Assembly (NCBI RefSeq): GCF_001618955.1
Contig: NZ_LVYV01000018.1
Span: forward strand, 1-39,176
From: Tardiphaga robiniae
GTDB taxonomy: Bacteria; Pseudomonadota; Alphaproteobacteria; Rhizobiales; Xanthobacteraceae
DNA length: 39,176 nt
Direction of reading: 5' to 3'
The notes under the pieces were generated by a model. The model made no database searches and had not been told where the DNA came from. It worked only from the letters and a program-made list of their open reading frames with translations. Shown piece by piece: positions 1,333-7,448 of this stretch. Position 1 is the stretch's first letter, and each line of letters begins with the position of its first letter. The translations under genes were made by a program, and so were the position numbers.

Positions 1333-2061
1333 CTAGTCGATCGCGCGGCCGGTGACGGTGGCGAGTTCGCGCACCATGCGGTCGGACACTTGCCCGGTCA
1401 CCGGCAGCTTGCGCTCGCGCTCGAAGCGTTGGATCGCGGCCGCTGTGTCCGAGCCGACATTGCCGGTCGGCTTCAGCTGACCATAACCGTATTCCGTCAG
1501 CGCGCGCTGAACAGCGGCGACGCGGCGCGTATTGGTGATGAGATCGCCGAGCGGATCAGTGCGGGTTGCATTCGGGATCGCTGCCGGCGGGCGTGCTACG
1601 GCGCCCGTGGTCGCCGGTGAGGCCGGTGATGCCGGCGCTTTCAGGAGATTGCCGACCGGATCGGCTGCGCGCTGTTCGACGGGCTTGGCAGCGAGTGATG
1701 GCTTCGGCTCATTGGCGCTGTTGACCGGCTTGGAATCCAGCATGCGGGAATCGAGCTTGGTGTCCGACGAAGCAGCATCCAGCGGACGCGGCTTGGGCAG
1801 CGGATTGGCGACCTGTGCCGGCGCCGGAAACGCAACGACGGTGCTGGAACCGAACATCGGCGACGGATGATGGCCCTTCTGCAGGAAAATAGCATTGGCG
1901 ATGATGGCGCTGACCGCGGCGAATGCGATCAACCCGGCGACCATGTCCTTCGGGCTGTGCAGCAGCACGCGCAACACGATGCCGCGCTCCGCGGGCTCAT
2001 CGACGATGGCGACGGCGCGGCCGCGTTTGGACTTGGTCGCTTTGGAACTGGCTTTAGGCAC
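1333..2061 (-). CDS. Membrane-anchored peptidoglycan-binding domain protein
   Basis: A 242-residue protein with a basic cytoplasmic N-terminus, one transmembrane helix near residues 38-60, a long Pro/Ala/Ser-rich linker, and a C-terminal peptidoglycan-binding domain 1 (about residues 180-240: VAAVQRALTEYGYGQLKPTG and SDTAAAIQRFERERKLPVTG). The layout suggests an inner-membrane protein reaching across the periplasm to the cell wall. The start is GTG, preceded by gaagaag, and overlaps the end of the histidine kinase gene by 8 bases, so the two are probably translationally coupled. Coupling to a DivJ-like kinase suggests a link between cell-wall state and cell-cycle signalling, but that is inference. 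Confidence 0.8.
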   Translation of the reverse strand: MPKASSKATKSKRGRAVAIVDEPAERGIVLRVLLHSPKDMVAGLIAFAAVSAIIANAIFLQKGHHPSPMFGSSTVVAFPAPAQVANPLPKPRPLDAASSDTKLDSRMLDSKPVNSANEPKPSLAAKPVEQRAADPVGNLLKAPASPASPATTGAVARPPAAIPNATRTDPLGDLITNTRRVAAVQRALTEYGYGQLKPTGNVGSDTAAAIQRFERERKLPVTGQVSDRMVRELATVTGRAID

Positions 2062-5304: not shown

Positions 5305-6516
5305 TTACCGGGCTTCAGCCCCAAGCGCGCCCGACCGAGCCCTCGCCTGCAGCCGGGACACCGCCTCGGCCAAAGGAACGTCGGCCTGTGAGCCGTCGCG
5401 CTCGCGCAGGCTCACCCGGCCGTCCCTCATCTCGCGCCCGCCTACGATCGCCATCACCGGCACCGCCATGTCATGCGCCGCCACGATGCGCCGTGAGAGG
5501 GTATCGGCGCCGTCATAGGCAATGGCCCTAATCCCCGCATCCTCGAACGCCGCCACGACGTCAGCGCCGTATCCGGCCTGGCCTTTCGAGATCGGCGCAA
5601 CCGCGACCTGATCCGGCGACAACCAGAAAGGAAGCACGCCGCCGTGATGCTCGAGCAGGATCGCGATCATGCGGCCAAGCGATCCGAAGATGGCATGGTG
5701 GATCATCAGGGGCCTTGCGCGGCTGCCGTCGGCGGCGACATAGGACGCGTCGAGCCGCTGCGGGAGAACGCTGTCGAGCTGCACCGTGCCACACTGCCAG
5801 GATCGTCCCAGCCGGTCGCGCAACGCGAATTCCAGCTTCGGTCCGTAGAACGCGCCTTCGCCCGGATTGATTTGAGGCGCGAGGCCGCATTGCCGCGCGG
5901 CATCGCCGAGCTTCGCCTCCGACCAGTCCCAGGTCGCATCGTCGCCAGCGCGCACCGGTGGCCGCGTCGCCAGCGCCACTTCGTAGTCGGGAAAACCAAG
6001 ATCGCGATACACCTCGCCCAGCAAAGCGATGAAGCGCGCGACTTCGTCCTCCACGTCCTGCTCGCGGCAGAACACATGCGCATCGTCCTGCTCGAAGGCG
6101 TGCGTTCGCATGATGCCGTGGAGCGAACCGGACGGCTCATTGCGGTGGCAAGCGCCAAACTCGGCATAGCGGATTGGAAGCTCTCGCCACGAGCGCAGAC
6201 CCTTGTTGAAGATCTGCACGTGGCAAGGGCATGACATGGGTTTCAGAGCCATCGCTTGTTCGCCGTCGTCGACCCGGAACATGTGCTCGCGGAATTTGTC
6301 CCAGTGGCCGCTGCGGCTCCAGAACTCCTTTGGCAGCAACTGTGGCGTTTGGACCTCGGCATAGCCGGCCTGGCGCATCTTGCGCCGGAGATAATCCTCC
6401 AGCACCCGGTAGATCGCGTAGCCGCGCGGATGCCAGAACACCATGCCCGGCGCATCGTCCTGCAGGTGCCAGAGTTTGAGTCTTACGCCGAGATTTCTGT
6501 GGTCGAGATCGTCCAT
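5305..6516 (-). CDS. thrS: Short-form threonyl-tRNA synthetase lacking TGS and editing domains
   Basis: A 403-residue class II synthetase containing only the catalytic and anticodon-binding parts of ThrRS; ordinary bacterial ThrRS is about 640 residues. Motif 2 (YAEFGACHRNEPSGSLHGIM) and motif 3 (HHAIFGSLGRMIAILLEHHGG) are clear. The three zinc ligands that select threonine are present: Cys in KPMSCP, His in QDDAHVFC, and the first His of HHAIFGS. The C-terminal anticodon-binding domain starts near VAVAPISKGQ. The missing N-terminal TGS and second-additional domain carry the Ser-tRNA(Thr) editing site, so the enzyme should be unable to edit in cis. The start at 6516 (MDDLDHRN) has aaagga upstream; the open frame extends farther but overlaps the leader and terminator. 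It is probably a paralogue of a full-length ThrRS encoded elsewhere, turned on by threonine limitation through the attenuator in front of it. Confidence 0.88.
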   Translation of the reverse strand: MDDLDHRNLGVRLKLWHLQDDAPGMVFWHPRGYAIYRVLEDYLRRKMRQAGYAEVQTPQLLPKEFWSRSGHWDKFREHMFRVDDGEQAMALKPMSCPCHVQIFNKGLRSWRELPIRYAEFGACHRNEPSGSLHGIMRTHAFEQDDAHVFCREQDVEDEVARFIALLGEVYRDLGFPDYEVALATRPPVRAGDDATWDWSEAKLGDAARQCGLAPQINPGEGAFYGPKLEFALRDRLGRSWQCGTVQLDSVLPQRLDASYVAADGSRARPLMIHHAIFGSLGRMIAILLEHHGGVLPFWLSPDQVAVAPISKGQAGYGADVVAAFEDAGIRAIAYDGADTLSRRIVAAHDMAVPVMAIVGGREMRDGRVSLRERDGSQADVPLAEAVSRLQARARSGALGAEAR

Positions 6517-6557
6517 GGCTATGTTCCTTTGATGGGAAAAAGCGCGGACGGGGTCAT

Positions 6558-6601
6558 CAAAAACAGAAAAGGCCCCGTCCGTCGCCGGCGGGGCCTTTTC
6601 T
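6558..6601 (-). terminator. Attenuator terminator upstream of thrS-like gene
   Basis: On the minus strand a perfect 13-bp stem (AGAAAAGGCCCCG, 6601-6589, with CGGGGCCTTTTCT, 6577-6565) closes an 11-base loop and is followed at once by GTTTTTG (6564-6558). This is an intrinsic terminator lying between the leader ORF and the thrS-like start codon, so it should end transcription before the gene unless prevented. A further 9-base match downstream (ccccgtccg, 6553-6545) can pair with the 3' arm and loop in read-through transcripts. Confidence 0.88.
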
Positions 6602-6662
6602 GGGTGAAGTACGCTTGTCTCTAGCGCGCGCGACCAGAAGGCGATCCGCCGTGAGCGGTCGC
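6593..6662 (-). promoter_or_regulatory. Threonine attenuator: alternative leader RNA pairings
   Basis: Three segments can pair in exclusive ways. Segment 1, GCGACC (6662-6657), covers leader codons 13-14 and pairs with GGUCGC (6635-6630). Segment 2, GCCUUCUGG (6642-6634), shares two bases with that pairing and can instead pair with segment 3, CCAGAAAAGGC (6603-6593), leaving only a two-base bulge. Segment 3 includes the 5' arm of the terminator. A ribosome stalled on the Thr codons would cover segment 1, release segment 2, and favour 2:3 pairing, which blocks the terminator. This is the standard logic of amino-acid attenuation; the structure was found by eye and not folded. Confidence 0.7.
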
Positions 6663-6698
6663 CGTGGTGGTCAATGCAGCTGATCGAAGCTTGTTCAT
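6621..6698 (-). CDS. Threonine-rich leader peptide of the thrS-like attenuator
   Basis: A 25-codon ORF starts MNKLRSAALTTTAT and ends GRAR before a TAG. Codons 10, 11, 12 and 14 are threonine (ACC ACC ACG, then ACC). Its role would be to sense charged tRNA(Thr): with threonine short, ribosomes stall on these codons and change the downstream RNA fold. The stop codon lies 20 bases before the terminator hairpin. The ORF sits in a different frame from the upstream extension of the synthetase. With the predicted promoter (6705-6733) the transcript would begin at or within a base or two of the ATG, so translation would be leaderless, as reported for trpL of Sinorhizobium meliloti. The ORF is too short to recognise by homology; position and composition are the evidence. 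Confidence 0.75.
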   Translation of the reverse strand: MNKLRSAALTTTATAHGGSPSGRAR

Positions 6699-6704
6699 GC
6701 GCTG

Positions 6705-6733
6705 TATATGGCGGCAAAACGCGCAGGCGTCAA
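6705..6733 (-). promoter_or_regulatory. Promoter of the threonine leader transcript
   Basis: On the minus strand TTGACG (6733-6728) and CATATA (6710-6705) are separated by 17 bases, a good sigma-70-like arrangement. Six bases follow before the leader ATG at 6698, which puts the expected transcription start at the ATG itself. The strength of the -10 box is moderate. Confidence 0.6.
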
Positions 6734-6851
6734 CGAAAGCTGCTTGGCGTCGTGGAATCGATGATGCGCGGGCCTATGAGCGCAGCCACCGACCTGGCCG
6801 TCGTCAAGCTCGCATCGCCCGCATCTGGCTGCGCGCTATCGGCTCCACAGC

Positions 6852-7448
6852 CTAGCTCTCGAACGCCGCATCCTCTGCGAGCCAGGTGCGCACTTTCGAT
6901 GCTTGCCCCCTGACCTCACTGGCGAAGCCGTAATGCCGCGCGAGGCGATCCAGCGCGAGTTGCAACACGACCTTGGCGGAACGCGCCGGCCAGTTGCGTT
7001 CACGCTCGACGTCTTCGAGGCCGCGCAGAAAACAACACACATCCATCAGAACCCCTGAAAACTCGGGCCCGCAGGCATCCAGCGCCTGACTGACGCGCTG
7101 GCGCGATGTCATCATGATATCCGTCATCTCGCCGGGATTGCTGCCGGCCCCGCGTGGCCGGCCGCCGGTCGGCGCGGCCCAGTTCGCCGTCATGCACGGC
7201 GCCATGTTGCCGCGCGTGAAATCGGCGCGCAGCTTTTCGCCGGCGATGAACTGATGCGGGCTGATCATGCTGCGGCCATCGCGGCCCTTGCGCCGGGCCA
7301 GCCAGCCGAGCGGGCTTTCACTGTCATTGACGAGAACGCTGGCGACGCCGTCTTCGGTGATGATCTGCCGCGTTTCCAGCGACAGATGCTGCGCGCGATG
7401 GTGATCGACGTGATCGGGATGCCTGGTGGTGCTGCGGGACGTTTTCAT
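6852..7448 (-). CDS. DUF6456 domain-containing protein
   Basis: A 198-residue protein that matches the alphaproteobacterial DUF6456 group: an N-terminal part with ESPLGWLARRKGRDGRSMIS, a central basic segment with GEKLRADFTRGNMAPCMTANW, and a C-terminal part with VCCFLRGLEDVERERNWPARSAKVVLQLALDRLARHYGF. The pattern resembles helical DNA-associated proteins, but no function is established. I chose ATG at 7448 because GGAGT lies about 9 bases upstream; the ATG at 7463 lacks a ribosome binding site. The gene lies upstream of the thrS-like unit on the same strand, with a gap of about 150 bases that holds the leader promoter, so the two are probably separate transcripts. Confidence 0.75.
   Translation of the reverse strand: MKTSRSTTRHPDHVDHHRAQHLSLETRQIITEDGVASVLVNDSESPLGWLARRKGRDGRSMISPHQFIAGEKLRADFTRGNMAPCMTANWAAPTGGRPRGAGSNPGEMTDIMMTSRQRVSQALDACGPEFSGVLMDVCCFLRGLEDVERERNWPARSAKVVLQLALDRLARHYGFASEVRGQASKVRTWLAEDAAFES

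Follow-up and report, generated by a model that had tools for sequence, protein, structure and literature searches.

A predicted threonine-sensing attenuator ahead of a spare threonyl-tRNA synthetase gene in Tardiphaga robiniae and in distant bacteria

The window, i.e., the whole 39,176-nt stretch of Tardiphaga robiniae DNA analysed here, carries on its minus strand a gene for a threonyl-tRNA synthetase (thrS2, coding for ThrRS2), preceded by a short leader ORF rich in Thr codons and by a hairpin with a U-run, with a DUF6456 gene as the upstream neighbour of the leader (Table 1). An earlier sequence-only reading had taken this arrangement for a complete threonine attenuator, and the 25-codon leader ORF that it described, with a Thr-Thr-Thr-Ala-Thr run (Thr at codons 10, 11, 12 and 14), is indeed present. 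Four Thr in five codons occur in 2 of the 572 ATG/GTG ORFs of 15-40 codons in the whole window, and the region 6733-6540 has a fold z of -4.5, with none of 200 shuffles equally stable. The chief argument against chance is conservation.

Table 1. Features of the thrS2 leader region in the window, in window coordinates.
Feature	Position	Strand	Remarks
DUF6456 gene	7463-6852	(-)	upstream neighbour of leader
-35 element TTGACG	6728..6733	(-)	sequence
-10-like element CATATA	6705..6710	(-)	spacer 17; would put +1 at A of leader ATG
Leader ORF MNKLRSAALTTTATAHGGSPSGRAR, stop included	6621..6698	(-)	25 codons, ATG at 6698
Segment 1: Thr10 Thr11 Thr12 Ala13 Thr14 codons (ACC ACC ACG GCG ACC)	6657..6671	(-)	
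Segment 2: CGGCGG...GCCUUCUGG	6634..6651	(-)	predicted partner: Thr codon region (1:2) or segment 3 (2:3)
Segment 3: CCAGAAAAGGCCCCGCCG	6586..6603	(-)	terminator 5' arm; segment 2 partner
Terminator hairpin 3:4	6564..6602	(-)	predicted; 17 bp, GNRA loop, bulged A, -32.6 kcal/mol
Segment 4: CGGACGGGGCCUUUUCU	6565..6581	(-)	terminator 3' arm; alternative partner: segment 5
U-run after terminator	6559..6563	(-)	sequence
Segment 5: CCCCGUCCGCGC	6542..6553	(-)	perfect partner of CGGACGGGG + tetraloop GCG
thrS2 Shine-Dalgarno (SD) AGGAA	6524..6528	(-)	weak hairpin over SD, shuffles as good here
thrS2, 403-aa threonyl-tRNA synthetase	5305..6516	(-)	catalytic + anticodon domains only

ThrRS2 consists of the tRNA-synt_2b and HGTP_anticodon domains only, without the SAD editing domain and TGS; its match to TIGR00418 (444.5 bits; cut-off 383.65) runs from position 172 on, and that to chain 1qf6 from residue 243 on. 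The canonical thrS of the same genome lies on contig C8 and codes for the SAD editing domain beside the core; SAD matches in the genome number two, on C34 and C8. The description of thrS2 as an editing-deficient ThrRS paralogue, made from the letters of the window, holds at the level of domains. In the alignment ThrRS2 retains KPMSC, DDAH and MIHH, which we take to provide the Zn ligands Cys, His and His. It reads MRTHAF where other short ThrRS among the matches listed have Arg (MRTRAF, MRTRGF and similar); the motif-2 Arg contacts ATP, so that with His in its place the copy in the window may be weaker, impaired or dead. Elsewhere, one short thrS2 (L042) seems frameshifted inside its first 50 codons, possibly through a sequencing error.

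A tree of 71 chosen ThrRS cores, its bootstrap not fully settled, unites all 37 short ones in a single clade (100/100; one change, 0 of 500 shuffles); the clade spans alphaproteobacteria, betaproteobacteria and Myxococcota, and a myxobacterial pair branches first within it. At E-values up to 1e-150, short ThrRS were recovered from 3 of the 18 genomes of the genus and 19 of the 391 genomes of the family. The best 80 of 581 matches in a GTDB scan added Bradyrhizobium, an Azospirillaceae MAG, Acidocella, Inquilinus, Paraburkholderia, Burkholderia, an uncultured bacterium and two myxobacteria. The 35 short-ThrRS loci compared below come from these searches, near-copies included (L044 and L051 have identical upstream sequence). 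A Thr-rich leader ORF (12-40 codons, at least three Thr in six codons) lies upstream of all 35, against 7 of 86 canonical thrS genes, and in 33 of the 35 it has at least four Thr in six codons. The sequence-only reading had proposed to align orthologues as one of its checks, and in the alignment of the upstream regions leader ORF, Thr run and terminator do accompany the short ThrRS (35/35 loci). At least one of the seven canonical-thrS matches, a full-length thrS of a Rhodospirillaceae MAG (L089 at 4120) behind the Thr-rich leader TTATTTATT and a hairpin with T-run, looks like a genuine attenuator. A full-length thrS behind a Thr-rich leader (TTTTTT) is also present in a Burkholderiaceae locus (L182).

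A covariance model, R1, built from 24 loci with four divergent loci held out, gave the same association. In the 391 family genomes it scores 101-138 bits in 18, all among the 19 with a short ThrRS, and the scores then drop from 101 to 57 bits; the nineteenth genome (L046) has a Thr leader recognisable by eye, which R1 scores at 17.4 bits. In an even sample of the class (385 genomes), all 13 short ThrRS among the matches listed, counted as open frames of fewer than 520 codons (two frames, of 534 and 544 codons, fell outside this limit), have an R1 match directly upstream. An all-against-all comparison of 12 named loci found neighbour genes beyond thrS2 common only to one Paraburkholderia pair and one myxobacterial pair (L054/L061 and L067/L118). 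The recurrence of the leader and thrS2 as a pair in distant bacteria points to a little-described threonine-starvation switch.

The sequence-only reading had placed a promoter before the leader. A simple consensus scan of 6400-6900 finds no sigma-70 type promoter, but the -35 element TTGACG is present, and the case for it is that the distance from a TTGAC box to the leader ATG is conserved. With a leader finder that scores Thr and Lys alike in each group and missed one locus (L183), 56 of 75 loci proved to have a TTGAC-type box at a distance of 27-33 nt ahead of the leader ORF, most commonly 29 nt (30 loci); most Asd loci have TTTACA in its place (by eye). Given a 17-nt spacer, a box 29 nt away would make the A of the leader AUG position +1, and one of the 75 loci shows an SD-like motif ahead of the leader ORF. 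This A is thus the probable start of transcription, i.e., the leader would itself be leaderless. In the locus missed by the finder, the leader has nine Thr and a stop codon out of frame, and the ORF continues through the terminator; a sequencing error is possible.

The terminator with T-run proposed earlier is present, though its predicted stem is longer than the 13 bp claimed: 17 bp, closed by a GCGA (GNRA) tetraloop and interrupted by one bulged A, and followed in the window by 6 U among the next 8 nt. A simple scan of 6400-6900 lists one terminator-like site, on the other strand (0.5 expected), and none on the same strand; both myxobacterial loci lack the U-run behind the hairpin. The pairing of GCGACC with GGUCGC offered earlier as the protector 1:2 is possible but is not the best one available: in the window GGCGACCGCU is predicted to pair with GGCGG-A-UCGCC instead, and GACCA with UGGUC in addition. 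The competing pairing 2:3, GCCUUCUGG with CCAGAAAAGGC, was confirmed as claimed and extends further by GGCGG/CCGCC. The covariation expected of the stems was found in part: four terminator pairs are changed on both sides in the RNAalifold consensus, but 1:2 is not recovered there. A further RNAalifold helix (28-51), inside segment 2, was left out of the model.

Folding of the growing transcript of the window suggests how these pairings would compete. In the unfinished transcript of 122 nt, the Thr codon region is paired with segment 2 when no ribosome is present; with a ribosome on the first Thr codon, segment 2 is paired with the 5' arm of the terminator; and with a ribosome at the stop codon, neither 1:2 nor 2:3 forms. 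The predicted antiterminator, stable for as long as the 3' arm is still missing and a ribosome occupies the first Thr codon, is exclusive with the terminator and would arise upon ribosome stalling at the Thr codons. Once the 3' arm is complete (142-145 nt), the terminator is the minimum (-46.9 kcal/mol) even with the stalled ribosome, and antitermination would therefore have to be kinetic, as in classic attenuators, up to the point where segment 5 is transcribed.

Across loci, a first test of the antiterminator, with a ribosome footprint ending 38 nt into the model, was negative (3/46 ThrRS, 0/12 Asd and 0/18 other loci). Since this footprint blocked much of segment 2, the test was redone with a footprint, chosen after the negative result, that ends 14 nt from where the first Thr codon begins: with the ribosome there, the antiterminator energy beats 95% of shuffles in 31 of 45 ThrRS loci, and the 5' half of the terminator is captured better than in 95% of shuffles in 30 of 45. 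The corresponding figures are 7 and 7 of 12 for Asd and 6 and 10 of 17 for other targets; three loci with incomplete flanks (L171, L178, L211) were excluded here and from the SD-hairpin and 4:5 shuffle tests. The leader finder was again the one that scores Thr and Lys alike and missed L183. In 43 of these 45 ThrRS loci, the Thr run is followed by GGCGG. When partners were swapped between clades, most Paraburkholderia, Burkholderia, Acidocella and Inquilinus loci gave a better 2:3 with the native partner than with a foreign one; in Bradyrhizobium-type loci, for which segment 3 was cut short in the test, the native partner had no such advantage.

R1 also retrieved leaders ahead of other genes. 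The 74 R1 loci examined for their targets, with Pfam searches of representatives, precede 31 short ThrRS, 13 Asd, 10 isochorismatase-like hydrolases, three ABM-domain proteins, three MFS transporters, one full-length ThrRS and one aspartokinase, with 12 not assigned. Counted with the same finder that scores Thr and Lys alike in each group, at least two Lys codons are present in the leaders of 12 of 12 Asd loci, as against 3 of 46 ThrRS loci and 0 of 17 with other targets, and the Asd leaders mix these Lys codons with Thr codons. Asd catalyses a common step towards Lys, Thr and Met. The combination of Lys and Thr in its leaders thus supports amino-acid sensing: a stalling sensor predicts Lys in Asd leaders, and a chance or purely structural origin does not.

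Several of these loci merit separate mention. In ten from Burkholderiaceae (L191, L196, L202 and similar) the gene behind a Thr-run leader codes for an isochorismatase-like hydrolase, and in three (L195, L198, L199), likewise from Burkholderiaceae, for an ABM-domain protein. In three other Burkholderiaceae loci (L167, L187, L188) an MFS transporter stands behind a ThrRS2-type attenuator, and its first codons, MMDDCDRRVSGDRVDPF, resemble the ThrRS2 start MMDDFDHRVLGNKLDLF, as though the transporter gene had taken over promoter, leader and first codons from thrS2. The leader is also present in L185, where the MFS protein match covers 44 residues only. A Myxococcus aspartokinase (L165 at 1400-1720, reverse strand) lies behind an ORF with ten consecutive Thr codons and a GC-rich hairpin with T-run. 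All 12 lower-scoring R1 loci examined (L145-L156, at about locus position 1440-1700) have a sister leader (MIKCSRKVNFNHMTRFGWAVEGVVR or similar) with no Thr run and a near-identical terminator; there a hairpin over the SD, seen by eye, is followed by a small protein, and the two of these proteins that were searched match Pfam DUF1127.

A fifth segment lies past the U-run, where CCCCGUCCG is perfectly complementary to the terminator 3' arm CGGACGGGG; none of 200 segment shuffles pairs equally well. This 4:5 pairing beats 95% of shuffles in 34 of 68 loci, i.e., in 11 of 11 Bradyrhizobium types (the test took in 11 of the 18 such loci) and 23 of 57 others. Permuting the partners between loci reached the real total in 0 of 2000 trials, or 14 of 2000 without the Bradyrhizobium types, a result inflated by the relatedness of the loci. 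A stricter control, in which the native partner was ranked against segments 5 from other groups alone, gave a weak result, with a mean rank of 0.45 (chance 0.5) and a place in the best quarter in 22 and the best tenth in 14 of 65 loci; it was run without L208, L225 and L166, whose terminator core was not located. In the isochorismatase group the tetraloop takes part in 4:5, as GCAA with UUGC (L191, L192) and GUGA with UCAC (L196). With a ribosome at the first Thr codon in the window, the predicted minimum shifts from the terminator at 142-145 nt to 2:3 plus 4:5 in transcripts long enough to include segment 5 (-53.8 at 160 nt, -56.5 at 185 nt). For a ribosome advanced by one codon, the terminated fold has -56.3. 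Because segment 5 is made past the termination point, 4:5 would act on the read-through RNA.

Segment 5 can also pair with the SD in some Burkholderiaceae, where a freed segment 4 is predicted to open the SD. Such an opening (a drop of more than 0.3) is predicted in 7 of 27 ThrRS loci outside the Bradyrhizobium types and 0 of 18 within, in a test without L208. Ten of 46 ThrRS loci and one of 9 Asd loci have an SD-sequestering hairpin that goes beyond 95% of shuffles, the gene start not having been located for L166, L168 and L215. For the window no such hairpin is proposed, 59 of 100 shuffles being as good. A six-segment relay, in which 4:5 (the 3' arm plus the GNRA tetraloop) would displace an SD hairpin 5:6, and which the members of a threonine (and lysine) regulon would have in common, is a tentative extension of these observations that we hold to be somewhat less probable than even. 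By it, one stalled ribosome would release transcription and then translation, and the regulon in alpha- and betaproteobacteria would comprise thrS2, asd, the isochorismatase-like hydrolase, the ABM-domain protein and the MFS transporter. In the window itself, the 4:5 part alone of this relay is supported.

We put at roughly 0.87 the probability that the element is a ribosome-mediated transcription attenuator which senses charged tRNA-Thr and switches on the spare ThrRS; its regulatory side in vivo we infer from sequence. When Thr-tRNA is plentiful, the ribosome would reach the stop codon and cover segment 2, whereupon the terminator 3:4 would form; with no ribosome, 1:2 would form and the terminator would form too. 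When Thr-tRNA is short, the ribosome would stall at the first Thr codons and leave segment 2 free to form 2:3 before segment 4 exists, and RNA polymerase would continue into thrS2. In the read-through RNA, the free segment 4 would be caught by segment 5, which in the window is predicted to bring the antiterminated fold level in stability with the terminated one and, in some Burkholderiaceae, to open the SD of the gene. ThrRS2 would in turn raise tRNA-Thr charging under threonine scarcity or inhibition of the main ThrRS.

Other explanations were weighed against this attenuator. Were the hairpin simply the ordinary terminator of the upstream DUF6456 gene, the Thr codons would be there by chance, and chance Thr-rich short ORFs do exist (the 2 of 572 in the window; the 7 of 86 canonical thrS, at least one of which is genuine-looking); however, leader and terminator accompany thrS2 in 35 of 35 loci across phyla, while neighbours are not common between genera (12 loci), and the association of leader and thrS2 brings this explanation close to refutation, making it the least probable of all. 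Hardly more credible is autogenous control, with ThrRS2 or ThrRS binding the leader after the manner of E. coli ThrRS, which acts through binding to its own operator. That the E. coli enzyme controls its own expression is recorded (PMC2965389), but asd, isochorismatase-like and MFS genes stand behind a similar terminator core, with leader codons that vary with the target.

A sensor that responds to slow translation whatever the amino acid, possibly Rho-dependent, would resemble the DUF1127 uORF of Sinorhizobium meliloti, for which the source describes uORF-dependent attenuation of the DUF1127 gene, relieved by tetracycline (PMC12218461); R1 too matches leaders before DUF1127 genes that have a near-identical terminator and no Thr run. 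Against it stand the conserved Thr run, the switch of asd leaders to Lys plus Thr and the presence of a strong hairpin with U-run, and we consider it quite unlikely. Also unlikely, if a little less so, is that the attenuator works as proposed but serves mainly to produce a terminated sRNA or a leader peptide that acts in trans, like rnTrpL/peTrpL: an attenuator RNA and leader peptide of S. meliloti are described as acting in trans (PMC7298713), and the C-terminal GGS.. part of our leader peptide is conserved in close relatives, but its N-terminal residues vary between lineages, and since the GGS.. part overlaps segment 2, RNA pairing can explain the conservation of that part.

If the attenuator reading is true, alpha- and betaproteobacteria would have a starvation response that reads charged tRNA-Thr and delivers a ThrRS lacking the proofreading domain; the cells would then either accept Ser-for-Thr errors or rely on the main enzyme for editing in trans. 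Tolerance of Ser for Thr would then come exactly under threonine scarcity, and a single gene with its leader would suffice for a direct test of regulated mistranslation. With Lys codons added to Thr before asd, nature offers an experiment on leader-peptide specificity, and the 4:5 pairing, if confirmed, would add an extra step to the textbook mechanism of attenuation.

The remark of the sequence-only reading that it knew of no attenuator described for thrS in alphaproteobacteria fits our literature searches: by title and abstract, with the subscription literature mostly outside their scope, they found no leader peptide or attenuation for a proteobacterial thrS, and no paper on leader-peptide attenuation of Asd. 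At gathering score no Rfam family, T-box included, is found in the window; in 6480-6760 there is no T-box up to E 5, and ten related loci have no Rfam match up to E 0.1. The Thr_leader family RF00506 reaches 22.7 bits on the minus strand (E 0.03) and 26.1 on the plus strand, the gathering score being 55. The thr operon leader of gammaproteobacteria that this family represents has a Thr-rich leader peptide, a 1:2 / 2:3 / 3:4 switch and a terminator, all of which the window element appears to share; the latter differs in standing before thrS2 rather than a thr biosynthetic operon, in having no Ile codon and in being probably leaderless. The thrZ gene of Bacillus subtilis, induced by low threonine, likewise codes for a spare ThrRS, but it is under tRNA-sensing T-boxes, whereas the window has a leader peptide.

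Closest in target is the thrL proposed before thrS in Streptomyces lividans, a single case that the source describes as leaderless, with 18 aa, two Thr and no clear terminator (PMC8079986). A leaderless Thr leader before thrS is common to both, in S. lividans in an actinobacterium, and a leader peptide for thrS is on the strength of that proposal already a known kind. Attenuation by leader peptides is also described for the synthetase genes pheST and, in Streptomyces, trpS and leuS, which resemble the present system in their type of target and differ in the amino acid (PMC1262725). The hisS paralogues of bacilli carry His leader peptides (PMC2965389) and so provide another duplicated synthetase under a leader of its own amino acid, there in Firmicutes and for histidine. 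As for the start of transcription, the trpL transcript of S. meliloti, also an alphaproteobacterium, is reported to begin at the leader ATG, as predicted here, with tryptophan and the biosynthetic trpE(G) in the places of threonine and thrS2 (PMC7298713). Finally, thrS2 of Anabaena codes for a second, editing-impaired ThrRS, which according to the source is induced by zinc limitation through Zur (PMC4787780); a second ThrRS, impaired in editing and induced under stress, would be common to both, the editing domain being degenerate in Anabaena and absent here.
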